The notes below the pieces were generated by a model. The model was not told the DNA's origin. It saw only the letters and a program-made list of their open reading frames with translations, and did not search any database. A stretch of DNA of 64,000 nucleotides. Source: Granulimonas faecalis (lineage in GTDB: Bacteria > Actinomycetota > Coriobacteriia > Coriobacteriales > Atopobiaceae). The translations under genes and the position numbers were made by a program. The DNA lies in contig NZ_BQKC01000001.1 in the NCBI RefSeq assembly GCF_022834715.1, positions 842,501 through 906,500 of the forward strand. Reading direction: 5' to 3'. This document shows, one piece after another, positions 35,555 through 53,615 of the stretch; the first letter of the stretch is position 1, and the number at the start of each line of letters is the position of its first letter.

Positions 35555-37711
35555 ATGGCGCAACGTCGCCCGAGGCACATGGCGGCCCCCGGCCCACGGC
35601 CCGAGAGGCGCGCCGACCCCGGCCCCGGGACCGACCCGGGCTCGACCATGATGTTCGTCGCGGCCTTGGAGGCATCGCGCAAGACCCAGGCGACCGCCCC
35701 CACGCCCGACCCCCGCGCCGAGCGCGCCGATCGCTCGCGCCGCATCGCCTCCGGCGTCCCCGACCCCCTCGAGGCCGACGCCTTCATCCCCGCGGCGCCA
35801 TCGGCGCCGGCGGCCTCGCCCTTCCTGCCTCAGCCCCACCGCCCCAAGGGGCCGGGCCACCTGCGGCGCACGGCGCCCGCCCCCGACACCACGGCCGCCT
35901 TTATGGAGGCCCTCGAGGAGGGCGGCCTCCACGGCAGGGCCTGCCGCCGTCATGGGCTGGCTCCCGGCGACACCGGCTCCGTGGACCTCACCCGGGATGC
36001 CGACGTCCTGGCCGGCGAGCCGCCCCTCGTGGGGGTGGAGCCGGGGGAGGTGCTGCCGGTGGCCTCCTTCGACGACGACCCGCTGGCCGCCGAGGCGGGG
36101 GAGGCCCGCGCCGCGGCGCGGGCCGACGTCGAGGCCTCCGTGGGCCGCAGCGCCGCCATGATGAGCCTGCTCGTCATCCTCAGCCGCATCACGGGGTTTC
36201 TCCGCACCTGGGGCCAGGGGGCCGCCATCGGCGGGGCCATGCTCGCCAGCTGCTACACCGTGGCCAACAACCTGCCAAACCAGCTCTACGAGCTTGTCAT
36301 GGGCGGCATGCTCGTCACCGCCTTCCTTCCGGTCTACCTCTCGGTCAAGGAGGAGGGGGGCCGCGAGCGGGCGAGCGCCTACACGTCCAACCTCGTGACC
36401 ATCGTGCTCGTGGTCATGGGGGCGGTGGCCCTGCTGGGTTTCGTGTTCGCGTCCCAGGTGGTGCTCACCCAGTCCTTCGGCGCCACCGAGGACTTCGACC
36501 ACGGACTCGCCATCTACTTCTTCCGCTTCTTCGTGGTGGAGGTCGTGCTCTACGGCCTCTCCTCGGTGTTCTCCGGGGTGCTCAACGCCGAGCGCGACTA
36601 CTTCTGGTCCACGGCGGCCCCGGTCTTCAACAACATCATCTGCACCGCGAGCTTCGCCGCGTACGCCCTGCTCGTGGGTACCGAGCCCGCGGCCGCCGTG
36701 CTGGCCCTGGCCGTGGGCAACCCCCTCGGCGTGGCGGTGCAGGTGCTCATGCAGATGCCCAGCCTGAGGCGCCACGGCATACGGCTGCGCCTCTCCGTCG
36801 ACCTGCACGACCCTGCCCTCAGGGAGACCCTCTCCATCGGCGTGCCCTCCCTCGTTGTCATGGTGGTGAGCTTCGCCACCGTCTCGGTGCAGACGAGCTG
36901 CGTGCTCTCCGCCACGTCGTCCGGCGCCGCCGTGGCCTACTACGCCAGGCTCTGGTACACGCTGCCCTACGCCATCCTGGCGGTGCCGGTCACCACGGCC
37001 ATGTTCACCGAGCTATCCCACGCCTATGCCGCCCGGGACATCCCCGGCTTCGTATCCGGCATCTCCTCGGGGTGCTCGCGCATCCTGTTCTTCCTCGTGC
37101 CCATGGCCGTCCTGCTTGTGGTGTTCTCGCCCCAGCTCTCCCAGCTCCTCAACGCCGGGTCGTTCACGGCCGAGGAGACGTCCATGATCGCCGGCTACCT
37201 CTCGGCCCTGGCCGTCTCGCTGCCATTCTACGGGGTCTGCACGTACCTGCAGAAGGTGTGCTCCTCCTGGCGCCGCATGCGCCTGTTCGCCGTGGCCAAC
37301 GTCGTGGCCGGCGTGGTCCAGGTGGTCTTCTGCCTCGCCCTCACCCCGGTCTGGGGCTACGTGGTGCCCGGCCTCTCGTCGCTCTTCTTCTTCGTCGCCG
37401 TCGACGTGGTCACCTTCGTCCAGCTGCGCCGAGAGCTCGGCCCCATCGGCTTCAAGGCCCTCCTCGCCTGCGCCGTGCGCTCCCTGGCCCTGGGCCTCGC
37501 CGGCGGCGCCGCGGGGGCCCTCCTGGTGTGGGCGCTCACCGGCCCCGCCGGCCTCGGAGGCCCGGGCCTCGCCAAGGGCCTCCTGGTCTGTGTGGCGGCG
37601 GGCCTGCCGGCCCTCGCGGTCACCTTCGGCGGTGCCATGGCGCTTCGCCTCCCCGAGGCGTCCTTCCTCCGGTCCATGGTGGGCAGGGTGGCCTCGCGCA
37701 GGGCTGCCTAG
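35555..37711 (+). CDS. murJ: Lipid II flippase MurJ with long N-terminal extension
   Basis: 718 residues. From about residue 200 (MMSLLVILSRITGFLRTWG) the protein is a MATE-like MurJ with some 14 membrane helices, including NLPNQLYELVMGGMLVTAFLPVY. It flips lipid II across the membrane for wall synthesis. The first 200 residues are Pro/Ala/Arg/Asp-rich and look disordered, unusual for bacterial MurJ outside actinobacteria. ATG 35555 begins 1 bp after the ybaK stop with GAGGGG upstream. A later start is possible, but no better ribosome binding site is seen. Confidence 0.9.
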   Translation: MAQRRPRHMAAPGPRPERRADPGPGTDPGSTMMFVAALEASRKTQATAPTPDPRAERADRSRRIASGVPDPLEADAFIPAAPSAPAASPFLPQPHRPKGPGHLRRTAPAPDTTAAFMEALEEGGLHGRACRRHGLAPGDTGSVDLTRDADVLAGEPPLVGVEPGEVLPVASFDDDPLAAEAGEARAAARADVEASVGRSAAMMSLLVILSRITGFLRTWGQGAAIGGAMLASCYTVANNLPNQLYELVMGGMLVTAFLPVYLSVKEEGGRERASAYTSNLVTIVLVVMGAVALLGFVFASQVVLTQSFGATEDFDHGLAIYFFRFFVVEVVLYGLSSVFSGVLNAERDYFWSTAAPVFNNIICTASFAAYALLVGTEPAAAVLALAVGNPLGVAVQVLMQMPSLRRHGIRLRLSVDLHDPALRETLSIGVPSLVVMVVSFATVSVQTSCVLSATSSGAAVAYYARLWYTLPYAILAVPVTTAMFTELSHAYAARDIPGFVSGISSGCSRILFFLVPMAVLLVVFSPQLSQLLNAGSFTAEETSMIAGYLSALAVSLPFYGVCTYLQKVCSSWRRMRLFAVANVVAGVVQVVFCLALTPVWGYVVPGLSSLFFFVAVDVVTFVQLRRELGPIGFKALLACAVRSLALGLAGGAAGALLVWALTGPAGLGGPGLAKGLLVCVAAGLPALAVTFGGAMALRLPEASFLRSMVGRVASRRAA

Positions 37712-37881
37712 GCCGTCGCGGCCCCCAAAGTGAAAACCTTGTTTCAGCTGGTTTTGCATTCTGCTAACGAGCCGACCGCTCATGGGCCGTTCGCTACCAT
37801 CTGTCCAAGGTATCAGCGCGTTCGCCGATGCGACGTGGTTCTCGACGTCGTCGGCTCTCGCACTACGCAAGGGGGATAGCC

Positions 37882-39117
37882 ATGAAGTTCTCCAACGTCT
37901 CGCGTCGTGGGTTCGTCCAGGCCATGGGTGTGGCCGGTGCCGCCGGCGCGGTGGCCCTCACCGGATGCGGCAACTCCGCCTCCGGAGGCGGGGCGGGCGC
38001 CGGCTCCGACGGCGGCAAGTTCAAGCTGGGCGGCATCGGCCCCGTTACCGGCCCCACCGCCATTTACGGCAACGCCTGCAAGAACGCGGCCCAGATCGCC
38101 GTTGACGAGATCGACGCCTCGGACTCCACGTTCAAGTTCGACTACCGCTTCGAGGACGACGAGAACAACGCCGAGAAGTCGGTCAACGCCTTCAACACCC
38201 TCAAGGACTGGGGCATGCAGATGCTCATGGGCACCACCACCACGGCCCCGTGCATCGCGGTGTCCAAGGAGGCCAACGCTGACAACATCTTCGAGCTGAC
38301 GCCCTCGGCCTCCTCCACCGACGTCATCGGCGGCCAGGAGGATGCGAGCGGCAACATCTCCGAGACGCGCAAGCCCAACGTCTTCCAGATGTGCTTCACC
38401 GACCCCAACCAGGGCGTCGCGTCGGCCAAGTACATCTCCGAGCAGAAGCTCGGCACCAAGGTGGGCATCATCTACGACAGCTCCGACGCCTATTCCACCG
38501 GCATCGACCAGAAGTTCCTCGCCGAGGCCAAGCAGGTGAGCCTCGAGGTGGTAGCCAACGAGGCCTTCACCGCCGACAGCGCCACCGACTTCTCCACGCA
38601 GCTCAACAACTGCAAGAATGCCGGCGCAGACATTCTCTTCCTCCCCATCTACTACACCCCGGCCTCCATCATCCTCAAGCAGGCCAACGACATGGGCTAC
38701 AAGCCCAAGTTCTTCGGTGTCGACGGCATGGACGGCATTTTGACCCTCGCGGGCTTCGACGAGTCCCTCGCCGAGGGCGTCATGCTGCTCACCCCCTTCA
38801 ACGCCGACGCCACCGACGAGAAGACCCAGGCCTTCGTGAAGTCGTACAAGGACAAGTTCGGTGAGATCCCCAACCAGTTCGCCGCCGACGCCTACGACTG
38901 CGTCTACGCCCTGCAGGCGGCCCTCGAAAAGGGCGGTTGCACGCCCGACATGAGCGCCTCCGACGTCTGCGACAAGCTCGTGGAGGTCTTTACCTCCGGC
39001 GACTTCACCTTCGACGGCCTTACCGGCGAGACCATGGCCTGGTCCGACACGGGCGAGGTCTCCAAGGAGCCCAAGGGCATGGTCATCCAGGGCGGCCAGT
39101 ACGTTGGCATGGAGTAG
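37882..39117 (+). CDS. livJ: Branched-chain amino-acid ABC transporter binding lipoprotein
   Basis: 411 residues. Signal SRRGFVQAMGVAGAAGAVALTGC (described in parts: SRRGF twin-arginine-like, LTGC lipobox), then a Gly/Ser linker and a family-1 periplasmic binding fold: FKLGGIGPVTGPTAIYG, NTLKDWGMQMLMGTTT, KVGIIYDSSDAYSTG and NQFAADAYDCVYAL. It is first of five liv genes. ATG 37882 follows AAGGGGGA. An intercistronic hairpin follows. The real ligand could be another amino acid or amide. Confidence 0.92.
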   Translation: MKFSNVSRRGFVQAMGVAGAAGAVALTGCGNSASGGGAGAGSDGGKFKLGGIGPVTGPTAIYGNACKNAAQIAVDEIDASDSTFKFDYRFEDDENNAEKSVNAFNTLKDWGMQMLMGTTTTAPCIAVSKEANADNIFELTPSASSTDVIGGQEDASGNISETRKPNVFQMCFTDPNQGVASAKYISEQKLGTKVGIIYDSSDAYSTGIDQKFLAEAKQVSLEVVANEAFTADSATDFSTQLNNCKNAGADILFLPIYYTPASIILKQANDMGYKPKFFGVDGMDGILTLAGFDESLAEGVMLLTPFNADATDEKTQAFVKSYKDKFGEIPNQFAADAYDCVYALQAALEKGGCTPDMSASDVCDKLVEVFTSGDFTFDGLTGETMAWSDTGEVSKEPKGMVIQGGQYVGME

Positions 39118-39161
39118 CACTGCCCAATGTAAGTGCTGCGTAACAAGAAAGCTGTGACACC

Positions 39162-39193
39162 GCGGGGGTCACCTATATTCAGGTGACCCCCGC
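39162..39193 (+). terminator. Intercistronic hairpin after livJ
   Basis: GCGGGGGTCACCT (39162-39174) and AGGTGACCCCCGC (39181-39193) are perfect 13-bp arms with a 6-base loop. It lies between the binding-protein gene and livH and probably lets only part of the transcripts continue. Confidence 0.75.
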
Positions 39194-39240
39194 ACCTAGG
39201 CGCGGGGAGCCTGTCAATCCCAACCAGGAGGGGAGGCGCT

Positions 39241-40125
39241 TTGGAGTTTTTGACCAACCTGATCAACGGCGTCAGCCTGGGCAGCGTGTACGCGATCATC
39301 GCCCTTGGCTACACTATGGTCTACGGCATCGCTAAAATGCTCAACTTCGCCCACGGCGACGTCATCATGGTGGGCGGCTACATCGCCTTCATCACGTTCA
39401 ACACCCTTGGGCTCAACCCGCTTCTCGCCGTGCTCGCCGCCGTGGTGGTCTGCACGCTTTTGGGCATGGGCATCGAGCGCGTGGCCTACAAGCCCTTGCG
39501 CCAGTCGCCGAGCCTCACGGTGCTCATCACGGCCATCGGCGTGTCGTACCTGCTGCAGAACCTAGCGCTGCTCATCTGGGGCTCCAACCCCCGCGTCTTC
39601 GCGTCCGTGGTGGCGGGCTGGCCGCAGGTCGTGCTCTTCGACGGGCAGCTGACCATCTCGGCCGAGACCATCGTCACCATTGCGTGCTCCGTGGTCATCA
39701 TGGTGGCCCTGGGCCTGTTCACCGCCAAGACCAAGATGGGCAAGGCCATGAGGGCCTGCTCCGAGGACCCCGGCGCGGCGCGGCTCATGGGCATCAACGT
39801 GGACAGCACCATCTCCACCACCTTTGCCATCGGCTCGGGGCTCGCCGCCGTGGCGGGCGTGCTGCTCTGCAGCTCCTACCCGGTGCTCCAGCCCACCACG
39901 GGTGCCATGCCCGGCATCAAGGCCTTCACGGCGGCCGTCTTCGGCGGCATCGGCTCCATCCCCGGCGCCGTGCTCGGCGGCCTGCTCTTGGGCATCATCG
40001 AGACCTTTGCCAAGGCCTATATCTCCACCCAGCTGTCAGACGCCGTGGTGTTTGCCGTGCTCATCATCGTCTTGCTGATCAAGCCCTCCGGCCTGCTCGG
40101 CAAGTACGTTCCCGAGAAGGTTTAG
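39241..40125 (+). CDS. livH: Branched-chain amino-acid ABC permease LivH
   Basis: 294 residues from TTG 39241, which follows GGAGGGGAGG. The opening EFLTNLINGVSLGSVYAIIALGYTMVYGI is classical LivH; about eight membrane helices, with the coupling helix in CSEDPGAARLMGINVD and the end FGGIGSIPGAVLGGLLLG. Confidence 0.95.
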   Translation: MEFLTNLINGVSLGSVYAIIALGYTMVYGIAKMLNFAHGDVIMVGGYIAFITFNTLGLNPLLAVLAAVVVCTLLGMGIERVAYKPLRQSPSLTVLITAIGVSYLLQNLALLIWGSNPRVFASVVAGWPQVVLFDGQLTISAETIVTIACSVVIMVALGLFTAKTKMGKAMRACSEDPGAARLMGINVDSTISTTFAIGSGLAAVAGVLLCSSYPVLQPTTGAMPGIKAFTAAVFGGIGSIPGAVLGGLLLGIIETFAKAYISTQLSDAVVFAVLIIVLLIKPSGLLGKYVPEKV

Positions 40126-40134
40126 GAGGAGGCC

Positions 40135-41263
40135 ATGGCATCTAAGACGACCGTTTCGGCCCAGGCCCCCACGTTCGCAGCGCGCCTCTCTGAGGCCGTA
40201 CGAGGGGCCTTCGGCACCTACGCCCTTGTGGTCATCGCCTTCCTGATCGTCCAGGGCCTGATTGCCACGGGCTCCATCACGAGCGCCCTCCAGGGCCAGC
40301 TCGTGCCCATCTGCGTCTACATCTGCGCCGCCGTGTCGCTCAACCTCGTGGTGGGTATCTCCGGCGAACTCTCCTTGGGCCATGCCGGCTTCATGAGCGT
40401 GGGCGCTTTCACCGGCGTCGTCATGGCCTCGCTTCTGGCCGACGTCATCCCCAACGATGCCCTGCGCCTTTTGGTGTCGGTTGCCACCGGCGGCTGCTTC
40501 GGCGCCCTTGCCGGCTTTTTGGTGGGCGTGCCCGTCATGCGCCTGTCCGGCGACTACCTCGCCATCGTGACCTTGGCGTTCGGCGAGATCATCAAGAACA
40601 TCGTCAACAACCTCTATGTGGGCCGCGATGCCGCGGGCCTCCACATGTCGCTCAGCTCGGTGGCCGACCTCGGCATGAACCACGGCGTCGTCATCATCAA
40701 CGGCCCCCAGGGAGCCGTGGGCATCGACAAGCTCTCCACGTTCGCAGCCGGCTTCGTCCTTATTCTCGTCACGCTCTTCGTGGTGCTCAACCTCGTGCGC
40801 AGCAGAAGCGGCCGCGCCATCATGGCCGTGCGCGACAACCGCATCGCGGCCGAGTCGGTGGGCATCAATATCACCAAGTACCGCCTTATGGCCTTCGTCG
40901 TGGCCGCTGCCTTGGCCGGTATGGCGGGCACGCTCTATGCCATGAACTTCTCAAGCGTCGTCGCCGGCCGCTTCGACTACAACACGTCCATCCTCATCCT
41001 GGTGTACGTGGTGCTCGGCGGCATCGGCAACGTCCGTGGCTCCATCATTGCCGCGGCCATTCTCACGATCCTGCCCGAGTTCCTGCGCTTTATGGCCGAC
41101 TACCGCATGCTCATCTACGCCGTCGTGCTCATCTGCGTGATGGTGCTGCCCAACATCCCTGCAGTACAGCGCGTGATGGAGGCGGTCAAGAGAAAGGTCC
41201 CGTGGCTCTCCGACAAGGACGCCATCGAGGACCCCGACATGGTCACGACGGGAGGCGACAGCC

Positions 41264-41271
<8 letters not shown>
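40135..41271 (+). CDS. livM: Branched-chain amino-acid ABC permease LivM
   Basis: 378 residues. Family features are VGISGELSLGHAGFMSVGAF, LSGDYLAIVTLAFGEI, the coupling segment AVRDNRIAAESVGINITKYR, and LGGIGNVRGSIIAAAIL. It forms the channel with LivH. The C-terminal 30 residues are charged and cytoplasmic. AGGAGG lies before ATG 40135; the end overlaps livG by 8 bp. Confidence 0.95.
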
Positions 41272-42223
<952 letters not shown>

Positions 42224-42227
42224 GGCC

Positions 42228-42935
42228 ATGGCGCTGCTCAAGGTTACCGACCTCAACGTGTACTACGGCAACATCCACGCCATCAAGGACGTCTCCTTCG
42301 AGGTCGAGGAGGGTGAGATCGTCACGCTCATCGGTGCCAACGGCGCTGGCAAGACCACCACGCTCAACACCGTGGCGGGCCTGCTCACCCCGCGCTCCGG
42401 TACCGTCGAGTTCAAAGGCGAGGAGCTCTCCCGCGTCCCGGCCCACCACACCGTGGGCCGCGGCATGGCCCTCTGCCCCGAGGGCAGGCGCGTGTTCCTC
42501 AACATGTCGGTGCGAGAGAACCTCGAGATGGGGGCCTTCACCCGCAGCGACTCCGAGGCCCGAGAGACCATCTCCACGGTCTTCGACCGCTTCCCGCGCC
42601 TCAAGGAGCGCGAGGGGCAGAGTGCGGGCACCCTTTCCGGCGGCGAGCAGCAGATGCTCGCCATGGGCCGGGCCATGATGAGCCGGCCCTCCCTGCTCAT
42701 GCTCGACGAGCCGTCCATGGGCCTCGCTCCCATTCTCGTGGACGAGATCTTCGACATCGTCAAAGAGCTCCACGAGGCGGGGACCACCGTCCTTCTGGTG
42801 GAGCAGAACGCCGCCAAGGCCCTCTCCATCGCCGACCGCGCCTACGTGCTCGAGACCGGCAGGGTGTCCATGGCCGGCGACGCCGCCGACCTCGCCCACG
42901 ACGACCGCGTGCGCAAGGCCTACCTGGGCGGCTGA
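42228..42935 (+). CDS. livF: Branched-chain amino-acid ABC ATPase LivF
   Basis: 235 residues. Walker A GANGAGKT, signature LSGGEQQM, Walker B LLMLDEPSMGL and the switch LLVEQNAAKAL are all LivF-typical. It starts 4 bp after livG, with GGAGG upstream, and closes the complete livJHMGF operon. Confidence 0.96.
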   Translation: MALLKVTDLNVYYGNIHAIKDVSFEVEEGEIVTLIGANGAGKTTTLNTVAGLLTPRSGTVEFKGEELSRVPAHHTVGRGMALCPEGRRVFLNMSVRENLEMGAFTRSDSEARETISTVFDRFPRLKEREGQSAGTLSGGEQQMLAMGRAMMSRPSLLMLDEPSMGLAPILVDEIFDIVKELHEAGTTVLLVEQNAAKALSIADRAYVLETGRVSMAGDAADLAHDDRVRKAYLGG

Positions 42936-42979
42936 GGCCGTTTCCGCCCGGTGCGGGGAGGGGCCGCCGTCCCTCCCCG

Positions 42980-43016
42980 TTGACTTTACTAGGGTAAAGT
43001 GCTTTACTCTGCTAAA
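42980..43016 (+). promoter_or_regulatory. his operon promoter overlapped by tandem palindromic operators
   Basis: TTGACT (42980-42985) and TTTACT (43003-43008) form a -35/-10 pair with a 17-bp spacer. Two 14-bp palindromes cover it: TTTACTAGGGTAAA (42985-42998) and TTTACTCTGCTAAA (43003-43016), centred 18 bp apart, so on nearly the same helix face. This is the layout of a repressor operator; a TrpR/YerC-type histidine regulator is a guess. Confidence 0.65.
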
Positions 43017-43048
43017 GCATCCGCGACCCCGTCCCCGAGGAGGCGCCG

Positions 43049-44680
43049 ATGATCCACGGCACCCCGCGCGGTTTCCGCGACATCCTGCCCGAGGAGGCCC
43101 TGGCCCGCGAGGCCCTGGCCGACACCGTGAGGCGCGTCTTCTCCGACCACGGCTACCTTCCCGTGGAGACGCCCCTGCTCGAGAGCCGCGAGGTCCTCGA
43201 GCGGGCCGGCCGCATCCGCGGCGTGCCGTTTCAGCTCATCGACGCCGACGACCGGCTCCTTATGCTGCGCCCCGACCTCACGCTGCCCATCGCCCGGCTC
43301 GTGGCCGGCCGGATGGGGGAGGGCGACCTCCCGGCGCGCCTGCGATACGCCGCCCCCGTGGTACGCGAGCAGCGCAGCCTTTCCGGCGAGGCGCGCCAGT
43401 TCACCCAGCTGGGCGTGGAGCTCGTGGGCGCCCCCGACGGCGAGGCCGAGGCGGAGGTCGTGGGCATCCTCATGGAGACCCTCGGGGCCGTGGGCCTCTC
43501 GGGTTGCACGGTCGTGTGCGGCTCGGTGCGCCCCCTTGCCGCGGCCATCGGGGCCGCCGGCGTCTCCCGCGCCGAGGCCGACAGGATCCTGGCCTTGGTG
43601 CACTCCTCCGACCTTGTGGGCCTCGACGCCTTCGTGGCCTCCCTGGACGTCCCCGGCCCCGCCGCCGCGGCGCTCCGCGGGCTGCCACGCTCCATGGGCG
43701 GGGTCGAGGCGCTCGACGCCGTGGACGCCCTGCTTGGCGCCGCCGGCGTGGCCGAGGCCGACCGCGGCACGGCGGAGCTCCGCGCCCTGGCCGGGGCCGT
43801 GGCGTCCGGGCCGGTGCCCCTGGCCTTTGACTTCTCCATCGCCAACTCGTTCGACTACTATACGGGCCTCGTGTTCAAGGCCTTCGCCCCCGGGTTCTCC
43901 TCGAGCGTGGCCTCCGGCGGCCGCTACGACGCCGTGCTGGCCAACCTGGACGTTCCGGCCGTGGGGGCCTGCGGCTTCGCCCTGTCCCTCGAGCGCCTCC
44001 AGGGCGCCCTCGACGTCCGCGACGGCGGGGGAGACGACCGTCCGCTGCGCGTCGCCGTGCCCAAGGGCTCGCTCTTCGGGCCCTGCGTGGACCTCCTCGA
44101 GGCCGCGGGCCTGCCCGTGGACGACCTGCGCGACCCCGGCCGGCGCCTCGTTGTGGCCGCCGGCGACGTGGAGTACGTGATCGTGCGCGCCACCGACGCC
44201 CCCGCCTTCGTGGCCTGGGGAGGCGCCGACTGCGGCGTGTGCGGCACCGACTCCCTGTTCGAGGCCGACCTCGACCTCGTGCAGCTGGAGGACCTGCGCT
44301 TCGGCGCCTGCCGCTTCGTCGTGGCCGAGCCCGCGGGCTCCGCGGGGGCCGCCGACGCCGCCTTCGCCCGGCGCGGCTCCTACCGGGTGGCCACCAAGTA
44401 CCCCCGCGTCACCCAGGCGTACTTCGACTCCGTCGGCTGCCCCGTGGACATCCTCGCGCTCCACGGCAACATCGAGCTCGGGCCCATCGTGGGCATGGCC
44501 GACCGCATCGTGGACATCACCGCCACCGGCACCACCCTGCGCGAGAACGACCTCGTGGTGGTGGCCGACGACGTCATGGACTGCTCGGCCCGCTTCTTCG
44601 CGGGGCCGGCGGCCTTCCGCAGCGACGCACGGATCAGGGCGCTCGGGGCTAGGCTCCGGGACGCCGTCGAGAAAGGCTGA
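43049..44680 (+). CDS. hisZG: HisZ-HisG fusion (ATP phosphoribosyltransferase with its regulatory subunit)
   Basis: 543 residues. Residues 1 to about 320 are a HisZ, a class II HisRS-like protein without tRNA charging: MIHGTPRGFRDILPEEALARE, LRPDLTLPIAR, FDYYTGLVFKAF and GGRYDAVL. After a short Asp/Gly linker, residues about 331-543 are a short-form HisG: RVAVPKGSLFGP, GADCGVCGTDSL, and the PRPP loop DITATGTTLREN. Short HisG needs HisZ for activity and histidine feedback, and the two are usually separate genes; here they are one chain with no stop or slip site in the linker. First gene of the his operon, GAGGAGG before ATG 43049. Confidence 0.93.
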   Translation: MIHGTPRGFRDILPEEALAREALADTVRRVFSDHGYLPVETPLLESREVLERAGRIRGVPFQLIDADDRLLMLRPDLTLPIARLVAGRMGEGDLPARLRYAAPVVREQRSLSGEARQFTQLGVELVGAPDGEAEAEVVGILMETLGAVGLSGCTVVCGSVRPLAAAIGAAGVSRAEADRILALVHSSDLVGLDAFVASLDVPGPAAAALRGLPRSMGGVEALDAVDALLGAAGVAEADRGTAELRALAGAVASGPVPLAFDFSIANSFDYYTGLVFKAFAPGFSSSVASGGRYDAVLANLDVPAVGACGFALSLERLQGALDVRDGGGDDRPLRVAVPKGSLFGPCVDLLEAAGLPVDDLRDPGRRLVVAAGDVEYVIVRATDAPAFVAWGGADCGVCGTDSLFEADLDLVQLEDLRFGACRFVVAEPAGSAGAADAAFARRGSYRVATKYPRVTQAYFDSVGCPVDILALHGNIELGPIVGMADRIVDITATGTTLRENDLVVVADDVMDCSARFFAGPAAFRSDARIRALGARLRDAVEKG

Positions 44681-44685
44681 CCCCC

Positions 44686-46086
44686 ATGAGAAGGATCACG
44701 CTCGAGGGTGGCGCCACCCTCACGAACGACGACCTGCGCCGCTCCGGGGCGCTGCCCGCCGACGCCGTGGCGGCCGCCGAGGCCATCGTCGACGCGGTGC
44801 GTACCGGTGGCGATGAGGCCGTGCGCGGCTTCTGCCTCGAGTTCGACGGTGCGGCCCCACGCTCCTTCCGCGTGCCCGACGACGTCGTGGCCGCCTCCCT
44901 CTCCCAGGTGGACCCGCGGTTCCTCGCCGCCCTCGAGAGGGCCCACGACCAGATCGAGGACTTCCACCGCCGCGAGGTGCGCCAGTCGTGGTTCACGACC
45001 AAGCCCGACGGGACCCTCCTGGGCGTCAAGGTGTCGCCTTTGGTCTCCGTCGGCATCTACGTGCCCGGCGGCCGCGCCCAGTACCCCTCCACCGTGCTCA
45101 TGAACGCCGTCCCCGCCAAGGTTGCGGGGGTGGGGAGGGTGGTCATGGTCACCCCGCCCCAGCGCGACGGCTCGCTCTCCGCCTACACCCTGGCGGCCGC
45201 GGTCGTGGCGGGCGTCGACGAGGTCTATGCCGTGGGCGGCGCCCAGGCCGTGGCCGCCCTCGCCTACGGCACCGAGACCATCCCCCGCGTCGACAAGGTC
45301 TGCGGCCCCGGCAACGCCTTCGTCGCCGCCGCCAAGCGCCGCGTCTCGGGCGACGTGGGCATCGACATGATCGCGGGCCCGTCGGAGGTGTGCGTGCTGG
45401 CCGACGACACGGCCAACCCCGCCGTGGTGGCCGCCGACCTCATGGCCCAGGCCGAGCACGACCCCTTGGCCGCGAGCTACCTCGTCACGACCTCCGCCGC
45501 CCTGGCCGACGCCGTGGAGGGCGCCCTCGACCTGCTCTGCGCCCAGTCGCCCCGCGCGGACGTCACCCGCGCCTCCCTCGACGGCCAGGGCGCCGTCGTG
45601 CTCTGCGACACGATGGACGCGGCCGTGGCGGCCGTGAACCGCATCGCCCCCGAGCACCTGGAGCTCTGCGTGGCCGACGCCGTCGCGCTCCTCGGCTCCA
45701 TCCGCAGCGCCGGCGCCATCTTCGCCGGCCACTGGAGCTCGGAGCCTCTGGGCGACTACGTGGCGGGTCCCAACCACACGCTGCCCACCGGGGGCACGGC
45801 CGCCTTCTCGAACCCGCTCTCCGTGGACGACTTCACCACCTCCTCGAGCGTGGTCTGCTACTCGCCGGCCGGCATGGAGGCCGACGCCGACGCCACCCAG
45901 ACCCTGGCCCAGGCCGAGGGCCTCTGGGCCCACGCGCTCTCCGTGGGCATGCGCCGCCGCCTGCGCGAGCGCGGCCCTGGGACCCCGTGGGAGGAGCTCT
46001 GCGAGGACGCCGCCGCGGCCGCCTGGCCCGAGACCCTCTCGGAGCCCGGCCGACCTGAGCTCGACTTCGAGACGGGCGGTGACTGA
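44686..46086 (+). CDS. hisD: Histidinol dehydrogenase
   Basis: 466 residues, a little longer than the usual 430. Motifs include [55 protein letters not shown] and a zinc and catalytic His region PEHLELC, ending with [11 protein letters not shown]. It carries out the last two oxidations from histidinol to histidine. It starts 5 bp after the fusion gene. The C-terminal 50 residues extend past the usual end. Confidence 0.96.
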
Positions 46087-46087
46087 C

Positions 46088-47182
46088 ATGGGCCTCTCCG
46101 AGCGGGCCCGCGCCCTCGTGCGCCCGGAGGTGGCGGACCTCGAGCCCTACGACCCCGGGTTCGTGGAGTGCCGGGTCAACCTCTCGGCCAACGAGAGCAC
46201 CTGGCCGCGCCCCCCGGCGCTCGAACGGGCCGTCCGCGAGGCCCTGGCGGCGACGCCCCTCAACCGCTACCCCGACCCCATGGCCAACGGCCTGCGCGAC
46301 GCCCTTGCGGCGTGGCACGGCGTCGACCGCTCCCAGGTGGTGGTAGGCAACGGCGGGGACGAGCTGATCTTCGACCTGCTTCTGGCCTTCGGGGGGGCCG
46401 GCCGCACCGTGCTGGATATGCCCCCCACCTTCTCGGTCTACGACATCTACGGAAGGCTCGTGGGCTCCACGGTCGTGGCCGTGCCGCGCGACCCCGAGAC
46501 GTTCGAACCCGCCTGGGACGAGGTCCTTGCCGCCGCGCGCACCGCGGACGTCGCCGTGCTGACCACGCCCAACAACCCCACGGGCAACACCGTGGCCCCG
46601 GACCGTGTGGAGGCCCTCTGCGAGGCCTGCCCCGGCGTCGTGCTGGTGGACGAGGCCTACGGCGAGTTCGCGCCGTCCATGGGGAGCGCGGCGGCGCTGC
46701 TCGACCGCCATCCCAACCTCTGCGTGCTCCACACGCTCTCCAAGGCCTTCGCCATGGCCGGCGCCCGCGTGGGCTACATCCTGGCCTCCCCGGAGCTTGT
46801 GGACGTCTTCGCCGCCGTGCGCCAGCCCTACACCGTGAACGTGCTGTCCCAGGCCGCCGCCACGGCTGTCGTGGAGGGGCGCGACCTCGCCCTGGCCGCG
46901 GTGGCCGACGTCGTGGCCGAGCGCACCCGCCTCACGGGGGGCCTGCGCGCCCTCGGCCTGCGCGTATGGGACTCCGAGGCCAATTTCGTGCTCGTGCGCG
47001 TGCCGGACGCCCATGCCGTGCGGCAGCGTCTCGCCCGGGACTTCTCCATCCTCGTGCGCGACCTCTCCTTTGCGCCGGGGCTCAGGGACTGCCTGCGCGT
47101 CACCGTTGGCACGCCCGAGGAGGACGACGCCGTCCTCGACGCCCTGCGCCGGATCCTCAGACCCGTCCCTTCCAGCTCCTAG
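46088..47182 (+). CDS. hisC: Histidinol-phosphate aminotransferase
   Basis: 364 residues, fold type I PLP enzyme. NLSANESTWPRP and NRYPDP at the start, GNGGDELIFDLL, TTPNNPTGN, VLVDEAYGEF, and the PLP Lys in TLSKAFAMAGARVGY. ATG 46088 is chosen because GGCGGTGA ends 5 bp upstream; GTG 46079 is in frame and would overlap hisD by 8 bp. It converts imidazole-acetol phosphate to histidinol phosphate. Confidence 0.95.
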   Translation: MGLSERARALVRPEVADLEPYDPGFVECRVNLSANESTWPRPPALERAVREALAATPLNRYPDPMANGLRDALAAWHGVDRSQVVVGNGGDELIFDLLLAFGGAGRTVLDMPPTFSVYDIYGRLVGSTVVAVPRDPETFEPAWDEVLAAARTADVAVLTTPNNPTGNTVAPDRVEALCEACPGVVLVDEAYGEFAPSMGSAAALLDRHPNLCVLHTLSKAFAMAGARVGYILASPELVDVFAAVRQPYTVNVLSQAAATAVVEGRDLALAAVADVVAERTRLTGGLRALGLRVWDSEANFVLVRVPDAHAVRQRLARDFSILVRDLSFAPGLRDCLRVTVGTPEEDDAVLDALRRILRPVPSSS

Positions 47183-47190
47183 GGGGAACC

Positions 47191-47775
47191 ATGAGACGAG
47201 CCACCGTCACCCGCACCACCGGCGAGACCGACATCGCCGTCACCCTCGACCTCGACGGCACCGGCGTCGTGGACGTCCGCACCGGGGTGGGCTTCTTCGA
47301 CCACATGCTCGACGCCTTCGGGCGCCACGGGCTCTTCGACCTCACGGTGCGCTGCGTGGGCGACCTCGACGTGGACGCCCACCACACCGTGGAGGACACC
47401 GGCATCGTGATCGGCGCGTGCATCCGCGAGGCGCTTGGCGACAAGGCCGGGGTCGCCCGGTTCTCCCAGTGCCTCGTGCCCATGGACGAGGCACTGGTCC
47501 TGGCCTGCGTGGACCTCTCGGGCCGCGGCGAGCTCTTCTGGGACGTCCCGATCCCCGTGCCCTCCATAGGCACCTTCGACTCGCAGCTGGCCCACGAGTT
47601 CTTCGCCGGCCTGGCCCGCGACGCCGGGGCCACGCTCCACATGCGCGAGCTTGCCGGCGAGAACGGCCACCACATCGTGGAGGCCGCCTTCAAGGCCGCC
47701 GGCCGGGCGCTGCGCTTTGCCTGCGGGCCCGACCCCCGCGTGACCGGGGTGCCCTCCACCAAGGGGACGCTCTGA
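47191..47775 (+). CDS. hisB: Imidazoleglycerol-phosphate dehydratase
   Basis: 194 residues, the monofunctional form without the phosphatase domain. Mn-binding His motifs FFDHML, DAHHTVEDTGI and GENGHHIVEAAFKA are all present. The missing phosphatase activity is supplied by the PHP-type enzyme encoded convergently at 50763-51572. AGGGGGA precedes ATG 47191. Confidence 0.97.
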   Translation: MRRATVTRTTGETDIAVTLDLDGTGVVDVRTGVGFFDHMLDAFGRHGLFDLTVRCVGDLDVDAHHTVEDTGIVIGACIREALGDKAGVARFSQCLVPMDEALVLACVDLSGRGELFWDVPIPVPSIGTFDSQLAHEFFAGLARDAGATLHMRELAGENGHHIVEAAFKAAGRALRFACGPDPRVTGVPSTKGTL

Positions 47776-48419
47776 TGGCCGTCTGCGTGCTCGACTACCA
47801 CAAGGGCAACCTCATGAGCGTGGCCCGCGCCCTCGACCGCTCCGGCGCCGACGTCGTGGTGAGCGACGACCCCGGGGTCGCGGCCGCCTCCGACGGCCTC
47901 GTCATCCCCGGCGTGGGTGCCTTCGCCGACGCCATGGGGTACATGGAGGCCTCCGGGCAGGCCGAGGCCGTGGCCCACGCCCGCGCCCGCGGCGTTCCCA
48001 TCCTCGGTATCTGCCTCGGCATGCAGCTGTTCTGCTCCCGCGGCCGCGAGGGCGGCGAGGGCTGGCGGCCGGGCCTGGGCTTCCTTCCCGGAGGGTGCAC
48101 GCGCTTGGAGTCCTCGCGCCTCAAGGTGCCCCACGTGGGGTGGGACGAGCTCGACCTCACGCCCCTCGGCCGCGCCTGCCCCCTGCTCGCCGGCGTGGGG
48201 GAGGGGTCGCACATGTACTTCACCCACTCGTACGCCCTGGACGACGGCTGCGACCCCGACGTGGTGTGCGCCAAGACCCACTACGCGCGTAGCTTCCCCT
48301 CGGTGGTCTGGAAGGGCAACGTCTTCGGCTGCCAGTTCCACCCCGAGAAGAGCTCCGGCGCCGGCCGTCCCATCCTCGAGAACTTCGTCGCCCTCGTGAA
48401 GGGGGGTCTGCCCCTATGA
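47775..48419 (+). CDS. hisH: Imidazole glycerol phosphate synthase, glutaminase subunit
   Basis: 214 residues, class I glutamine amidotransferase. The nucleophile Cys is in GICLGMQLF; the His/Glu pair is in FGCQFHPEKS. It makes ammonia that tunnels to HisF. The start overlaps the hisB stop (TGATG) and its own stop overlaps hisA (ATGA). Confidence 0.96.
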   Translation: MAVCVLDYHKGNLMSVARALDRSGADVVVSDDPGVAAASDGLVIPGVGAFADAMGYMEASGQAEAVAHARARGVPILGICLGMQLFCSRGREGGEGWRPGLGFLPGGCTRLESSRLKVPHVGWDELDLTPLGRACPLLAGVGEGSHMYFTHSYALDDGCDPDVVCAKTHYARSFPSVVWKGNVFGCQFHPEKSSGAGRPILENFVALVKGGLPL

Positions 48420-49156
48420 TCGTCTACCCCGCCATCGACCTCGTCGCGGGCGACGTGGTGCGCCTGCGCCAGGGCGTCCGCAGCGAGATGGACGTGTACT
48501 CCTCCGATCCCGTGGCCCAGGCCGAGGCCTTCGCCGCCGCGGGCGCCGGGTGGGTCCACATGGTGGACCTCTCCCGCGCCTTCGGCGAGGACGAGGCGGC
48601 CTGCGCCGCCAACATGGACGCCATTCGCGCCGTCTGCGAGCGGGTCCCTGTGCGCGTGGACGCCGGCGGCGGCGTGCGCGGCCTCGCCGACGTCGAGCGC
48701 CTCCTGGACGCTGGCGTCTCCCGCGTGTCCATCGGCACGCCGCTGGTGCGCGACCCGGGCTTCGCGGCCGAGGCCGTGGCGCGCTTCGGCGACGCCGTGG
48801 CGGCCGACGTCGCGGCCAAGGGCGGCGCCGTGCGCGTGGACGGCTGGCGCGACGAGGCCCCCGTGTCCCTGGAGACCCTCCTCGCCTCCGTGGTCGGGAT
48901 GGGCTTCTCGCACCTCGTGTACACCGACGTATCCCGCGACGGCATGCAGACGGGCGTGGACCCGGAGGCCTACCGCGCTGTCGCGGCCGCCTGCGGGTTT
49001 CCTGTCACGGCCTCGGGCGGCGTGACCACCGTGGAGGACGTCCGGAGGCTCGCGGCCCTCGGCGACGGCGTCGTCGAGGGGGTCGTCTGCGGGCGGGCCC
49101 TCTATGAGGGGACCCTCGACCTCGCCGAGGCGCTCGCCGCGGCGGGAGGGGAGTGA
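48416..49156 (+). CDS. hisA: ProFAR isomerase HisA
   Basis: 246 residues, TIM barrel. Catalytic Asp8 in [17 protein letters not shown] and the second Asp in [13 protein letters not shown]; phosphate-binding half-barrel repeats SGGVTT and DAGGGVRG. It opens the ribose ring of ProFAR. No sign of a PriA-like bifunctional role can be read from the sequence alone, and trp genes are not in the window. Overlaps hisH by 4 bp. Confidence 0.95.
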
Positions 49157-49158
49157 CC

Positions 49159-49923
49159 ATGCTCGCCAAACGCGTGATCCCGTGCCTCGACGTCAAGGAC
49201 GGCCGGGTGGTCAAGGGCGTGAACTTCGTGTCCCTGCGCGACGCCGGCGACCCGGTGGAGCTCGCCTCCGCCTACGACGCCGCGGGCGCCGACGAGGTCG
49301 TGTTCCTCGACATCTGCGCCACGAGCGACGACCGCGCCACCACCGTGGGCATGGCCTCCGACGCCAGCCGGCGCCTGGGCATCCCCTACACCGTGGGCGG
49401 CGGTTTTCGCGACCTCGCGGCCATGCGGGCCATGGTGGCCGCGGGCGCCGACAAGGTCTCGGTCAACTCGGCCGCCGTGCGCGACCCGTCGCTCATCTCG
49501 GCCGCCGCGGCGGCCTTCGGGAGCCAGGCCGTGGTGTGCGCTGTGGACGCCCGCGCCACGGGCCCCAACCGCTGGGAGGTCTACACCGCCGGCGGGCGCA
49601 CCGCCACGGGCATCGACGCCGTGGCCTGGTGCGAGGAGGCCGCCCGCCGTGGCGCCGGCGAGATCCTGCTCACCTCCATGGACCGGGACGGCACCAAGGA
49701 GGGCTTCGACCTCGCCCTCACCCGCGCCGTGGCCCGCGCCGTGCCCGTCCCCGTCATCGCCTCGGGCGGCGTGGGGAACCTCGAGCACTTCGCCGAGGGC
49801 GTCCTCGAGGGGGAGGCAGACGCCGTGCTCGCGGCGAGCGTCTTCCACTTCGGGACCTTCTCGGTGAGGCAGGTCAAGGAGTACATGGCGAGCCAGGGCA
49901 TCCCGGTGCGGCTGGACTTCTAG
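49159..49923 (+). CDS. hisF: Imidazole glycerol phosphate synthase, cyclase subunit
   Basis: 254 residues. [20 protein letters not shown] (first catalytic Asp), [10 protein letters not shown], and the second Asp in [12 protein letters not shown] are conserved. ATG 49159 gives the standard N-terminus, and GGGAGGGGAG is upstream; the in-frame GTG 49153 is rejected. It pairs with HisH. Confidence 0.97.
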
Positions 49924-49987
49924 GCCGCGGCCGCGCGTCGTGCGGCGCTATGCTTCTCGGAACGAACACGCGTAGGGGAGGAGACCC

Positions 49988-50374
49988 ATGGACCGTGCCC
50001 AGGGTGACGCCGACGGCGTCGTGGAGATAGACGAGGCCACCGTGCGCCTCGACGGGGACGGGCTCGTGCCCGCCGTCGTGCAGCAGGCCGGCACCGGAGA
50101 GGTGCTCATGGTGGCGTGGATGAACGAGCGCTCCCTCGAGCTCACCCGCGAGACGGGGACCACGTGGTTCTGGTCGCGCTCCCGCCGGGAGCTCTGGAAC
50201 AAGGGGGCCACGAGCGGCAACGTGCAGACCGTGCGGCGCATCCTGGTGGACTGCGACGGCGACACCCTCCTCGTGGAGGTGGACTCGCCCGGCCCCGCCT
50301 GCCACACCGGCAACCGCTCCTGCTTCTTCCGGCAGCTCTCGCCCACGGCCGCCGTCGACTTCGAGGAGGCCTAG
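49988..50374 (+). CDS. hisI: Phosphoribosyl-AMP cyclohydrolase
   Basis: 128 residues. [39 protein letters not shown], and the metal-binding Cys/Asp set VDCDGD and CHTGNRSCF are intact. Free-standing form, with HisE separate downstream. GGGGAGGAG precedes ATG 49988, 64 bp after hisF. Confidence 0.97.
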
Positions 50375-50376
50375 CC

Positions 50377-50694
50377 ATGGGGGAGAGGACCGCCAACGTG
50401 GAGCCGAGGCCCGTCGGGCCCGTGCTCGAGGAGCTCGCCGCCACCATCGCGGGGCGCTGGGACGCCGACCCCGAGGCCTCCTACACCGTGCGTCTGCTCA
50501 AGGGGCCCGAGGACCGCGTGCTCAAGAAGGTGTGCGAGGAGGCGGTGGAGGTGGCGCTGGCGTCCAAGGACGGCGACCACGACCACGTCCGCTACGAGGC
50601 GGCCGACCTCGTCTACCACCTCATGGTCTGCCTGGAGCGCCAGGGCGTCTCGCTCGAGGAGCTGGCGGGGGAGCTGGCGGCGCGCTTCAAATAG
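50377..50694 (+). CDS. hisE: Phosphoribosyl-ATP pyrophosphatase
   Basis: 105 residues. All-alpha MazG-like fold with KKVCEEAVEVALA and EAADLVYHLMVCLE carrying the Mg-binding acids. The start is set by GAGGAGG 7 bp upstream, overlapping the hisI stop. Last gene of the operon. Confidence 0.96.
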   Translation: MGERTANVEPRPVGPVLEELAATIAGRWDADPEASYTVRLLKGPEDRVLKKVCEEAVEVALASKDGDHDHVRYEAADLVYHLMVCLERQGVSLEELAGELAARFK

Positions 50695-50703
50695 CCGTCG
50701 CGC

Positions 50704-50714
50704 GGGGGGGGGGG
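50704..50714 (+). repeat. Homopolymer of 11 G after the his operon
   Basis: A run of eleven G between the hisE stop and the convergent phosphatase gene. It lies outside any coding region, so slippage would not change a protein. It may also be an assembly-sensitive spot. Confidence 0.8.
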
Positions 50715-50762
50715 CGTCCCTGCCGTTGTGGCGGGCTGTCACCCCATGGCGCCCCTGGGGCC

Positions 50763-51572
50763 CTACAGCGGGACGCTCCGCCAACCGTCCCTCCCCGGCA
50801 CCTCCTGGGCCCGCACACCGTGCCACCAGGCGTAGGCGTGGGCCCGTTCGAGGCCCCAGGCCACGTCCTCGGCCCGGTGGGCGTCGCTGCCAAAGGTCAT
50901 CGGCACCCCGGCGCGCACGAACGCGTCCAGCAGCGCCCCGCACGGGTAGAACGCGCCCACGCCCTTGCGCAGGCCCGCCGTGGAGACCTCGACGCGCCGC
51001 CCGGTGTCGTGGGCGCACTCGGCCATGGCCGAGAAGGTCGCCGAGAGGTCCATGGTGGGGGCTAGCCCCTCGTTCGAAAACCGGAACGGCAGGTCCGGGT
51101 GGGCCATGACGTCGAACCCCGCCGGGCTCTCGCACGCGGCGCACCAGGCGGCCGCGTAGCGGCGCCAGACCTCGTCGGGCCCCAGTTCCTCCCAGATGTG
51201 CAGGTCGTCCGGGTCGTCGATCCACGCGCCGCCCTCCTGGGGGCCTATCCAGTGCACCGAGCCCAGGAGCAGCGCCGCGCCGCGGGACCAGCGCGCCACG
51301 TTCCCCTCGCACCCCGGGTACCAGTCGCACTCGAAGCCCAGGAGCACCTCCACCGGGGAACCCTCCGCCGCCGCGGCGACCTCGACCGCGAGGGTGGGGA
51401 GGTCTGCCTCGGCCACGGAGCACCCGCATGCGGGGTCCATGGCCGCCGGCAGCGTGAGGTGGTCGGTCACGGCCAGGACGTCTACGCCCGCTGCCCGCGC
51501 CGCGGCAGCCATGGCGGCGGCGTCGCAGGTGCCGTCGGATCGACTTGTGTGCGTATGAAGGTCGGCGAGCAT
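50763..51572 (-). CDS. hisK: PHP-family histidinol-phosphatase
   Basis: 269 residues. Metal ligands DLHTHTSRSDG at the start, VTDHLTLP, FECDWYPG, LLLGSVHWIG, VMAHPDLP and FGSDAHRAEDV follow the HisJ/HisK pattern of the PHP superfamily. It would remove phosphate from histidinol phosphate, the step missing from the monofunctional HisB. It lies convergent to the his operon, so it is transcribed separately. Other PHP phosphatases act on different phosphoesters, but the setting makes histidinol phosphate the likely substrate. Confidence 0.85.
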   Translation of the reverse strand: MLADLHTHTSRSDGTCDAAAMAAAARAAGVDVLAVTDHLTLPAAMDPACGCSVAEADLPTLAVEVAAAAEGSPVEVLLGFECDWYPGCEGNVARWSRGAALLLGSVHWIGPQEGGAWIDDPDDLHIWEELGPDEVWRRYAAAWCAACESPAGFDVMAHPDLPFRFSNEGLAPTMDLSATFSAMAECAHDTGRRVEVSTAGLRKGVGAFYPCGALLDAFVRAGVPMTFGSDAHRAEDVAWGLERAHAYAWWHGVRAQEVPGRDGWRSVPL

Positions 51573-51597
51573 GGCCCCCCCGGTCCCGGAATCGGCA

Positions 51598-51636
51598 TTG
51601 ACAGGTCGTACTTCTTATGCATCTACATCGGTAGAT
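51598..51636 (+). promoter_or_regulatory. Promoter and dyad upstream of the sialic-acid operon
   Basis: A consensus -35 TTGACA (51598-51603) is followed after 18 bp by TCTACA (51622-51627). A perfect dyad ATCTACATCGGTAGAT (51621-51636) covers the -10 region, the classical place for a repressor. The 312 bp between 51573 and 51884 also contain AATAAT near 51789, a possible second -10, but no gene. Confidence 0.5.
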
Positions 51637-51884
51637 AGATTTCACCGCAAAAGCGGGGGACAGCCTCCCAACGGACAATACGATGCGTTTTCCTGCGCCC
51701 GGCATGTCCCCGTGGGCGAGTAGGCATGTTTTATTCCGCCTATGGCTTGGCAGGGCCTTCCCGGTCGTGAGGGGCCGTTCGCCGACAATAATATCAGCTG
51801 TAAGAGCGCGGAATCGCAGCCGACCTATCATGAAAACCGGCTTAAAAAGGGCGGGATACCGCCAGAGAAGACAGGAGATACGCA

Positions 51885-53489
51885 ATGTTTGACAAGGGCA
51901 TGTCGCGTCGCACCTTCCTCGGCCTCGGCGGCACCGCCGCGGTCGCCGCGGGCCTCGGCCTCGCCGGCTGCGGCGGCGGTGGCGACGACGCGTCGTCCGG
52001 CTCCGGCTCCGGCGGCGCCGACGCCACCCTGACCGCGGGCCTCGCCTACCAGAACCAGGGCAACCTCGACCCGCTGTCCACCTCCAGCGCCACCGGCATG
52101 GCCGCCAACTGGTGCGTGGCCGAGGGCTTCTTCGAGTTCGACTACGCCAAGATGGAGGCCTTCGCCGCCCTGGCCGCCTCCGAGGACATCGAGAAGGTCT
52201 CCGACACCGAGTACAAGGTGCAGTTCCGCGAGGGCGCCAAGTTCTCCGACGGCACCGCCGTCACCCCCGACGACGTCATCAAGTCCTGGCAGCGCGCCGC
52301 GGGCATCGACGAGGAGTACAAGGGCAACATCTACGAGCCCATGCTCACCTTCATCGACGCCGTCGAGGCCGACGGTGACACCGGCGTCACCTTCAAGCTC
52401 AAGAACGCCTTCGACCCCGAGATCATGAAGAAGCGCCTCTGCATCATCAAGATCTGCCCGGCCTCCATGTCCAAGGACGAGCTCACCAAGCTCCCCGTGG
52501 GCACCGGCCCCTGGAAGTACGACGAGTCCAACGAGCAGTCCATCAAGCTCTCCGTCAACGAGAACTACAACGGTCCCAAGCCGGCCAGCAACCCGGTGGA
52601 GTTCACCGTCCTCGTCGACAACGACCCGCGCGTCACGGCCATGACCGAGGGCACCACCATGGTCTGCGAGGCCGTCCCCGCCGAACAGATCGCCAACTTC
52701 GAGGGCCAGGGCATCACCGTCGACAAGGTCCAGGGCTTCAACCTGCCCTTCTTCATGTTCAACCTCAAGAAGAAGCCGTTCGACGACGTTCGCGTGCGCC
52801 AGGCCTTCTTCTACGCCGTCGACGTCGAGAAGATCATCGAGAACGCCCTCGACGGCCTCGCCCAGCCGGCCACCTGCTACCTGCCCGAGAACTTCCCCGG
52901 CTACCACAAGGCCTCCACGGTCTACACCTACGACGTCGACAAGGCCAAGAGCCTCCTCGAGGAGGCCGGCGCCACCGGCACCAAGCTGACCCTCCAGACC
53001 ACCGACACCGCCTGGATCAAGGAGATCGCCGCCTCGATCCAGCAGGACCTCATCGCCGCCGGCCTCGAGGTCGAGCTCAACTCCCAGAAGAGCTCCGACC
53101 TCTACGCCAACCAGGCCACGCCCGACGCCTCCGGCGTGTGCCCCTACGACGTGGTGCTCGCCTCCGGCGACCCCTCGGTCTTCGGCAACGACCCCGACCT
53201 GCTCATGAGCTGGTTCTACGGCGACGGCATCTGGACCCAGTCCCGCTACGGCTGGCAGGGCATGGAGAAGTGCACCGAGCTCCAGACCCTCATGGCCAAG
53301 GCCGTCACCGAGACCGGCGACGCCCAGCAGGACACCTGGAACCAGTGCTTCGACCTCCTGGCCGAGCAGGTGCCCCTGTACCCGCTGTTCCACCGCGTCA
53401 CCCCCACCGGCGTCTGGGCCGACAAGATCGACGGCTTCCAGGCCATCGGCTGCACGGGCATCGACCTCGTGGGCTGCAAGGCCAAGTAA
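51885..53489 (+). CDS. Family-5 solute-binding lipoprotein, probably for sialic acid
   Basis: 534 residues. Signal MSRRTFLGLGGTAAVAAG with LAGC lipobox, then a Gly/Ser linker. Family-5 features: YKVQFREGAKFSDG, VTPDDVIKSWQRA, VGTGPWKYDES and VRVRQAFFYAVD. It is less like the oppA product than the orphan at 16683 is. It is first in an operon with two permease parts, two ATPase parts and nan-type genes, so N-acetylneuraminate is the likely ligand; peptide is the alternative. CAGGAG precedes ATG 51885. Confidence 0.85.
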   Translation: MFDKGMSRRTFLGLGGTAAVAAGLGLAGCGGGGDDASSGSGSGGADATLTAGLAYQNQGNLDPLSTSSATGMAANWCVAEGFFEFDYAKMEAFAALAASEDIEKVSDTEYKVQFREGAKFSDGTAVTPDDVIKSWQRAAGIDEEYKGNIYEPMLTFIDAVEADGDTGVTFKLKNAFDPEIMKKRLCIIKICPASMSKDELTKLPVGTGPWKYDESNEQSIKLSVNENYNGPKPASNPVEFTVLVDNDPRVTAMTEGTTMVCEAVPAEQIANFEGQGITVDKVQGFNLPFFMFNLKKKPFDDVRVRQAFFYAVDVEKIIENALDGLAQPATCYLPENFPGYHKASTVYTYDVDKAKSLLEEAGATGTKLTLQTTDTAWIKEIAASIQQDLIAAGLEVELNSQKSSDLYANQATPDASGVCPYDVVLASGDPSVFGNDPDLLMSWFYGDGIWTQSRYGWQGMEKCTELQTLMAKAVTETGDAQQDTWNQCFDLLAEQVPLYPLFHRVTPTGVWADKIDGFQAIGCTGIDLVGCKAK

Positions 53490-53615
53490 GTTCCTTCAAG
53501 GTTCCAACCCCGGAGCGATCCGGGACGGGCGCGGGGAGGCACCGCACCATCGCCTTCCCGCGCCCCATTTGTGCACATAGGCAACCCGTTTCTATTGTGA
53601 AAGGAGAGACGCAAC

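Follow-up and report, generated by a model that had tools for sequence, protein, structure and literature searches.

Can one protein combine the sensor subunit with the catalytic subunit of the enzyme for the first step of histidine synthesis, and how would such a protein arise? The question is posed by an open reading frame in the 64,000-nucleotide stretch of the Granulimonas faecalis genome analysed here (the window), in which the first-pass annotation saw HisZ and a short-form HisG joined in a single chain by a short Asp/Gly linker. This gene, hisZG, indeed encodes one protein that joins the sensor (HisZ) and catalytic (HisG) subunits of ATP phosphoribosyltransferase (ATP-PRT). Its parts, all on the plus strand, are as follows.

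43037-43043, plus strand: Shine-Dalgarno-like GAGGAGG, read from the sequence
43049-44680, plus strand: hisZG fusion gene, 543 amino acids (open reading frame; Pfam and NCBIfam domains; full-length single-frame relatives)
43049-44011, plus strand: HisZ domain, residues 1-321, lacking the HisZ C-terminal domain (Pfam, VIA-align, C-terminal-domain profile)
44012-44044, plus strand: linker DVRDGGGDDRP, residues 322-332 (11 residues), read from the sequence, its length and sequence differing widely among relatives
44045-44677, plus strand: short-form HisG domain, residues 333-543, without HisG_C (Pfam, NCBIfam)

One reading frame and its operon

The frame starts with ATG and comprises 543 codons with no internal stop. 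Its length alone is little evidence because the DNA is GC-rich, as illustrated by an antisense frame of 486 amino acids that overlaps the gene; homology to two families within the same frame takes the fusion out of the realm of chance. In Pfam, tRNA-synt_His is matched at residues 8-317 (E 1.3e-65) and HisG (PF01634) at residues 380-537 (E 1.8e-41), and the NCBIfam profile TIGR00070 (hisG) is matched at residues 333-517, above its cut-off. The best profile for the HisZ half is TIGR00443 (hisZ; E 3.3e-70), with a score of 236.7 bits that falls under the curated cut-off of 271.65. The Pfam search does not report PF08029 (HisG_C) for HisZG, and the same library does report it for long-form HisG. 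In structural terms, the best fold match of the HisZ half is Bacillus HisZ (3od1; Z 37.0, 2.1 Å, 314 residues; VIA-align), and Lactococcus lactis HisZ aligns with Z 32.0 at 2.5 Å over 311 residues; no PDB chain that spans both domains is among the matches listed (Foldseek, VIA-align 2). Thus, the reading of the two domains as one chain holds, the Asp/Gly linker lies where the first-pass annotation had placed the junction, and the fixed 1:1 stoichiometry that it proposed follows from the single chain. Nor is there a separate hisG in the same strain: hisZG is the sole HisG gene in the G. faecalis genome (2.23 Mb, 96% complete).

The fused gene is the first of a complete operon, hisZG-D-C-B-H-A-F-I-E (43049-50694). 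The elements that precede and follow it are these.

42984-43017, plus strand: two tandem HisR-type operators, palindromes at 42984-42999 (CTTTACTAGGGTAAAG) and 43002-43017 (CTTTACTCTGCTAAAG)
44686-46086, plus strand: hisD (Pfam Histidinol_dh)
46079-47182, plus strand: hisC (Pfam Aminotran_1_2 and operon position)
47191-47775, plus strand: hisB (open reading frame, named from its translation and gene order, as in Collinsella)
47775-48419, plus strand: hisH (open reading frame, named from its translation)
48416-49156, plus strand: hisA (Pfam His_biosynth)
49153-49923, plus strand: hisF (open reading frame, named from its translation)
49988-50374, plus strand: hisI (open reading frame, named from its translation)
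50371-50694, plus strand: hisE (Pfam PRA-PH)
50763-51572, minus strand: PHP-domain protein, adjoining the hisE end of the operon on the opposite strand

No histidinol phosphatase is encoded within the operon, and the PHP-domain protein plausibly fills this role. Directly upstream, at 39241-42935, lies a cluster encoding a transporter of the branched-chain amino-acid ABC type, with two permeases and two ATPases as judged from the translations.

Both tandem palindromes before hisZG agree with the published HisR consensus, cacTTTAnnnnnnTAAAgtg (PMC9413887), and the number of operator matches expected in shuffles is 0. The pattern CTTTAN6TAAAG occurs at three sites in the whole genome, two before hisZG and one before an amino-acid ABC transporter. 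This third site (L166 about 1500-1516; genome C1:1654512-1654527) precedes genes for a solute-binding protein and a permease that are divergent from hisS and encode a putative histidine transporter; the targets named for HisR are the his operon and a histidine transporter (PMC9413887). In most relatives from the family of G. faecalis, sites of the same form lie close before the fused gene, and C1:1572749-1573003 encodes a member of the TrpR/HisR family. We infer that histidine represses the his operon through HisR. No RNA family was matched within 36000-54000.

Distribution, tail loss and the number of fusions

The fusion has spread through the lineage and is not a feature of a single strain. 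Of the 398 class genomes searched, more than 150 are listed with a single colinear match that spans all of HisZG without a stop, so that the survey of Coriobacteriia proposed in the first-pass annotation has turned up the same fusion many times over. Queries with the HisG half, combined with a second look at the open reading frames, allowed 105 loci to be classified, of which 63 proved fused and 42 separate. In the order of the host, fused genes characterize families f1 (that of G. faecalis), f2, f3 and f5, and separate genes families f4, f6 (all but one locus), f7, f9 and f10; in some genomes of the order HisG is missing altogether. Elsewhere in the class, the genes are fused in f11, f13 and f14 and separate in f12 and f15-f26 where these were sampled, as they are in the phylum outgroups. 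At the separate loci, hisZ lies directly 5' of hisG, often with a 4 nt overlap. A Collinsella aerofaciens record carries the fusion at coordinates identical to those matched in an f3 genome, which makes it very probable that f3 represents Coriobacteriaceae. A scan of the contigs of named relatives yielded only one fused match, and when 150 genomes from a second phylum, to which Giesbergeria belongs, were surveyed, the matches listed included no full-length fusion. An apparent in-frame TGA or fission in genomes G182 and G393 gave way, on re-reading, to stop-free fused frames of 555 and 565 amino acids.

Across the fused relatives, the linker spans 8-96 residues and is highly variable in sequence (an automatic cut gave 0 for two f14 proteins in which the shorter HisZ misplaced the linker). 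Because of this wide variation the join looks like a tether, as the sequences suggest; the claim that fusion constrains the geometry of the hetero-octamer is plausible, but weaker than originally put. Long linkers are found in L151 (313-2184; 96 residues) and L156 (301-2109; 71 residues), compared with the 11 residues in G. faecalis. Family f14 harbours shortened fusions of about 470 amino acids (L121 298-1710, L122 307-1683). Their HisZ half is missing the helical insertion found at residues ~157-247 of G. faecalis HisZG, which makes these proteins candidates for a minimal fused ATP-PRT.

The HisZ of class outgroups carries a tail of ~100 residues after the core, and in most separate-gene families of the host order the tail measures 43-97 residues, the exceptions being 23 and 4 residues in two f6 loci and 123 in one; the fused proteins have only the variable linker in its place. 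At E < 0.01, a profile built from the outgroup tails matches 19 of the 27 other HisZ tails from separate genes, but not one of the 63 fused junctions; the tail was thus lost before or at fusion. By the same token, a later split of the fused gene is an unlikely source of the separate state in the host order because the separate-gene families keep remnants of the C-terminal domain that are absent from the fused proteins. The graded series from full HisZ tail through eroded tail to fusion can be read as a natural record of two overlapping genes becoming one. The C-terminal domain is likewise absent from HisZ of L. lactis and T. maritima (PMC10795190), so it is not a defining feature of HisZ.

How many times, then, did the genes fuse? 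A tree of 65 rows that includes both domains requires four changes for the fused state, three of which are forced by well supported branches. A single clade for the main fusions of the host order (f1, f2, f3 and f5) is not rejected (p = 0.31). Rejection is obtained for a single origin of all class fusions except L100, the f6 fusion (AU test, p = 0.01), and for one clade of the host-order fusions together with L100 (p = 0.007), these two p values being somewhat optimistic given that the groups were named after the first tree had been seen. A single ancestral fusion in the class, followed by splitting, is rejected both by the AU test and by the C-terminal-domain remnants in separate-gene families. 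The fusion arose more than once. In addition, three genomes of the host order contain a divergent HisZ/HisG lineage (L111, L112 and L113; HisZ ~24% and HisG 37-41% identical), possibly acquired from Bacillota. Its genes are separate in two genomes and have fused independently in one (L113, in an f2 genome; HisZ 24%, HisG 37% identity). Monoglobus pectinilyticus (Clostridia) encodes a fusion of 556 amino acids with both Pfam domains and ~32% identity to G. faecalis HisZG, which groups in the tree with Bacillota sequences, a rough placement with long branches; it is probably an independent fusion. It is tempting to propose that in overlapping hisZ-hisG pairs the disappearance of the C-terminal domain from HisZ made fusion possible on repeated occasions, several of them in Coriobacteriia and a further one in Clostridia. 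The product would be a self-stoichiometric ATP-PRT of four identical chains, with allostery perhaps within the chain. We hold this broader scenario tentatively, at slightly worse than even odds.

A probable tethered holoenzyme and its alternatives

Allostery between subunits has a model in ATP-PRT, where the influence of HisZ reaches the active site of HisG over a distance of about 20 Å. A natural single-chain ATP-PRT would ease the study of tethered, strictly 1:1 allostery. By all the sequence evidence HisZG appears to be functional, and we consider it likely (with a probability of about 0.85) that it is a covalently joined, working, histidine-inhibited short-form ATP-PRT that arose from adjoining hisZ and hisG genes. 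The HisG half would make phosphoribosyl-ATP from ATP and PRPP, and the HisZ half, a paralogue of HisRS devoid of synthetase function, would activate it and relay inhibition by histidine; four chains would probably form an assembly equivalent to the HisZ4-HisG4 octamer, in which the linker acts as a tether and fixes the 1:1 stoichiometry. In the known holoenzyme, HisZ and HisG are present in equal numbers (PMC9734150). The fusion itself would have occurred where hisZ lay directly 5' of hisG, overlapping it or abutting on it, the C-terminal domain of HisZ being lost beforehand or in the same event. The frame, its two domains, the lack of a second HisG, the spread among relatives, the loss of the tail, the repeated origin and the operon with its operators are seen directly; that the fused protein is catalytically active and inhibited by histidine, that HisR represses its gene, and how the chains assemble, we infer.

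The conservation of residues is largely, but not entirely, that expected from the first-pass annotation, according to which all key motifs are kept. Over 50 fused proteins, the PRPP loop DITATGTTL (489-497) is invariant or nearly so, and Arg365, the equivalent of Arg56 of Psychrobacter HisG, is invariant; at the position of Psychrobacter Arg32 HisZG has Ser341, the Arg of the KGR motif being absent (the correspondence was set by the motifs KGR and SRK; for the roles of the two arginines, see PMC9734150). Ser or Ala predominates here throughout the host order and class, whether the proteins are fused or not, so that an Arg at this position is not family-defining, and its loss through fusion is rejected.

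The four-chain octamer is challenged, with perhaps a modest chance of success, by an alternative in which the fused chain works in another assembly, for instance a dimer, with the HisZ-HisG contact within one chain. AlphaFold2, run on the fused alignment, does position both domains confidently within a monomer (pLDDT 93.3, pTM 0.90), although a monomer pTM says nothing on the octamer contact; against this alternative, known HisZ proteins without the C-terminal domain still assemble as octamers (PMC9734150, PMC10795190), and loss of the domain is compatible with an octamer because it is absent from L. lactis and T. maritima HisZ. It is improbable that the HisZ half has become a mere scaffold or activator that no longer senses histidine: HisZ does evolve faster than HisG among relatives (in f2, 37-41% identity to G. 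faecalis HisZG for HisZ and 56-65% for HisG), but the HisRS-type ligand-site motifs Gln120, YYTG (270-273) and GGRYD (290-294) are kept and nearly invariant in the fused proteins. Even less credible is the production of two proteins from the fused gene, through an internal start at the junction or cleavage of the linker. A GGGGGAG stretch is present in the linker DNA just 5' of the HisG part, but a junction start codon with a strict Shine-Dalgarno sequence is found in only 3 of the 63 fused genes, compared with 20 of the 42 separate ones and with 7 of 63 in a control stretch inside hisZ; signals that are not kept argue against a free HisG product, the internal start is rejected for want of enrichment, and there is no common linker sequence for a protease to recognize. 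A sequencing or assembly error that hides a stop or frameshift between two genes can be dismissed, even though a single indel could fuse the genes of class outgroups that overlap by 4 nt, given that the junction is open, with different linkers, in the more than 150 independent genomes, in some of them within one contig. The same applies to a working histidyl-tRNA synthetase fused to HisG: the HisZ half shares fold and profile family with HisRS, but it lacks the anticodon-binding domain and has Asn266 in place of the Arg of the RGLDYY motif of HisS, and the only further HisRS-like gene in the genome is a true, complete hisS.

Comparison with known systems

HisZG represents a neat variation on an established enzyme rather than a new one, and the fusion has already been mentioned in passing and is present in databases. 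One sentence in a 2022 paper, with Fani et al. 2007 among its citations, states that hisZ and hisG are fused in some genomes (PMC9413887), although the word hisZ is absent from the text of Fani et al. (PMC1963479); we found no literature on the distribution, origin or biochemistry of the fusion in a search of mainly open-access papers. The fusion accounts, too, for the uneven naming in databases, where such a protein is called hisG in one genome and hisZ in another, as a result of which an organism can appear to lack one subunit. Both C. aerofaciens WP_320677953.1 (named hisG; same order) and M. pectinilyticus WP_320690599.1 (named hisZ) resemble HisZG in domain order, short linker and absence of the HisZ C-terminal domain. 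As a separate observation, three class relatives (L174, L175 and L176, in genomes G063, G079 and G093) have a long-form HisG with HisG_C plus a short-form HisG and HisZ, in each case both systems in one genome, whereas the two are commonly assumed to be mutually exclusive (PMC8305728).

The long-form HisGL of the E. coli type is like HisZG in combining catalysis and histidine control in one chain, but its regulatory part is the HisG_C domain of ~75 residues, which HisZG lacks, and not HisZ. Neighbouring his genes are fused in hisIE, hisNB and HIS7 as well (Fani et al. 2007, PMC1963479); unlike these, HisZG joins a regulatory and a catalytic subunit. The closest comparison is with the short-form HisZ-HisGS enzymes of L. 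lactis (1Z7M/1Z7N), Psychrobacter arcticus (5M8H) and Acinetobacter baumannii (8OY0), with which HisZG shares both subunits, their folds, the 1:1 ratio and the ligand-site and PRPP-loop motifs and, with L. lactis HisZ in particular, the absence of the C-terminal domain. It differs from them in the Ser at the HisG Arg32 position and in that HisZ and HisG come in one frame, not as separate polypeptides, which makes it a variant and not a standard short-form holoenzyme.
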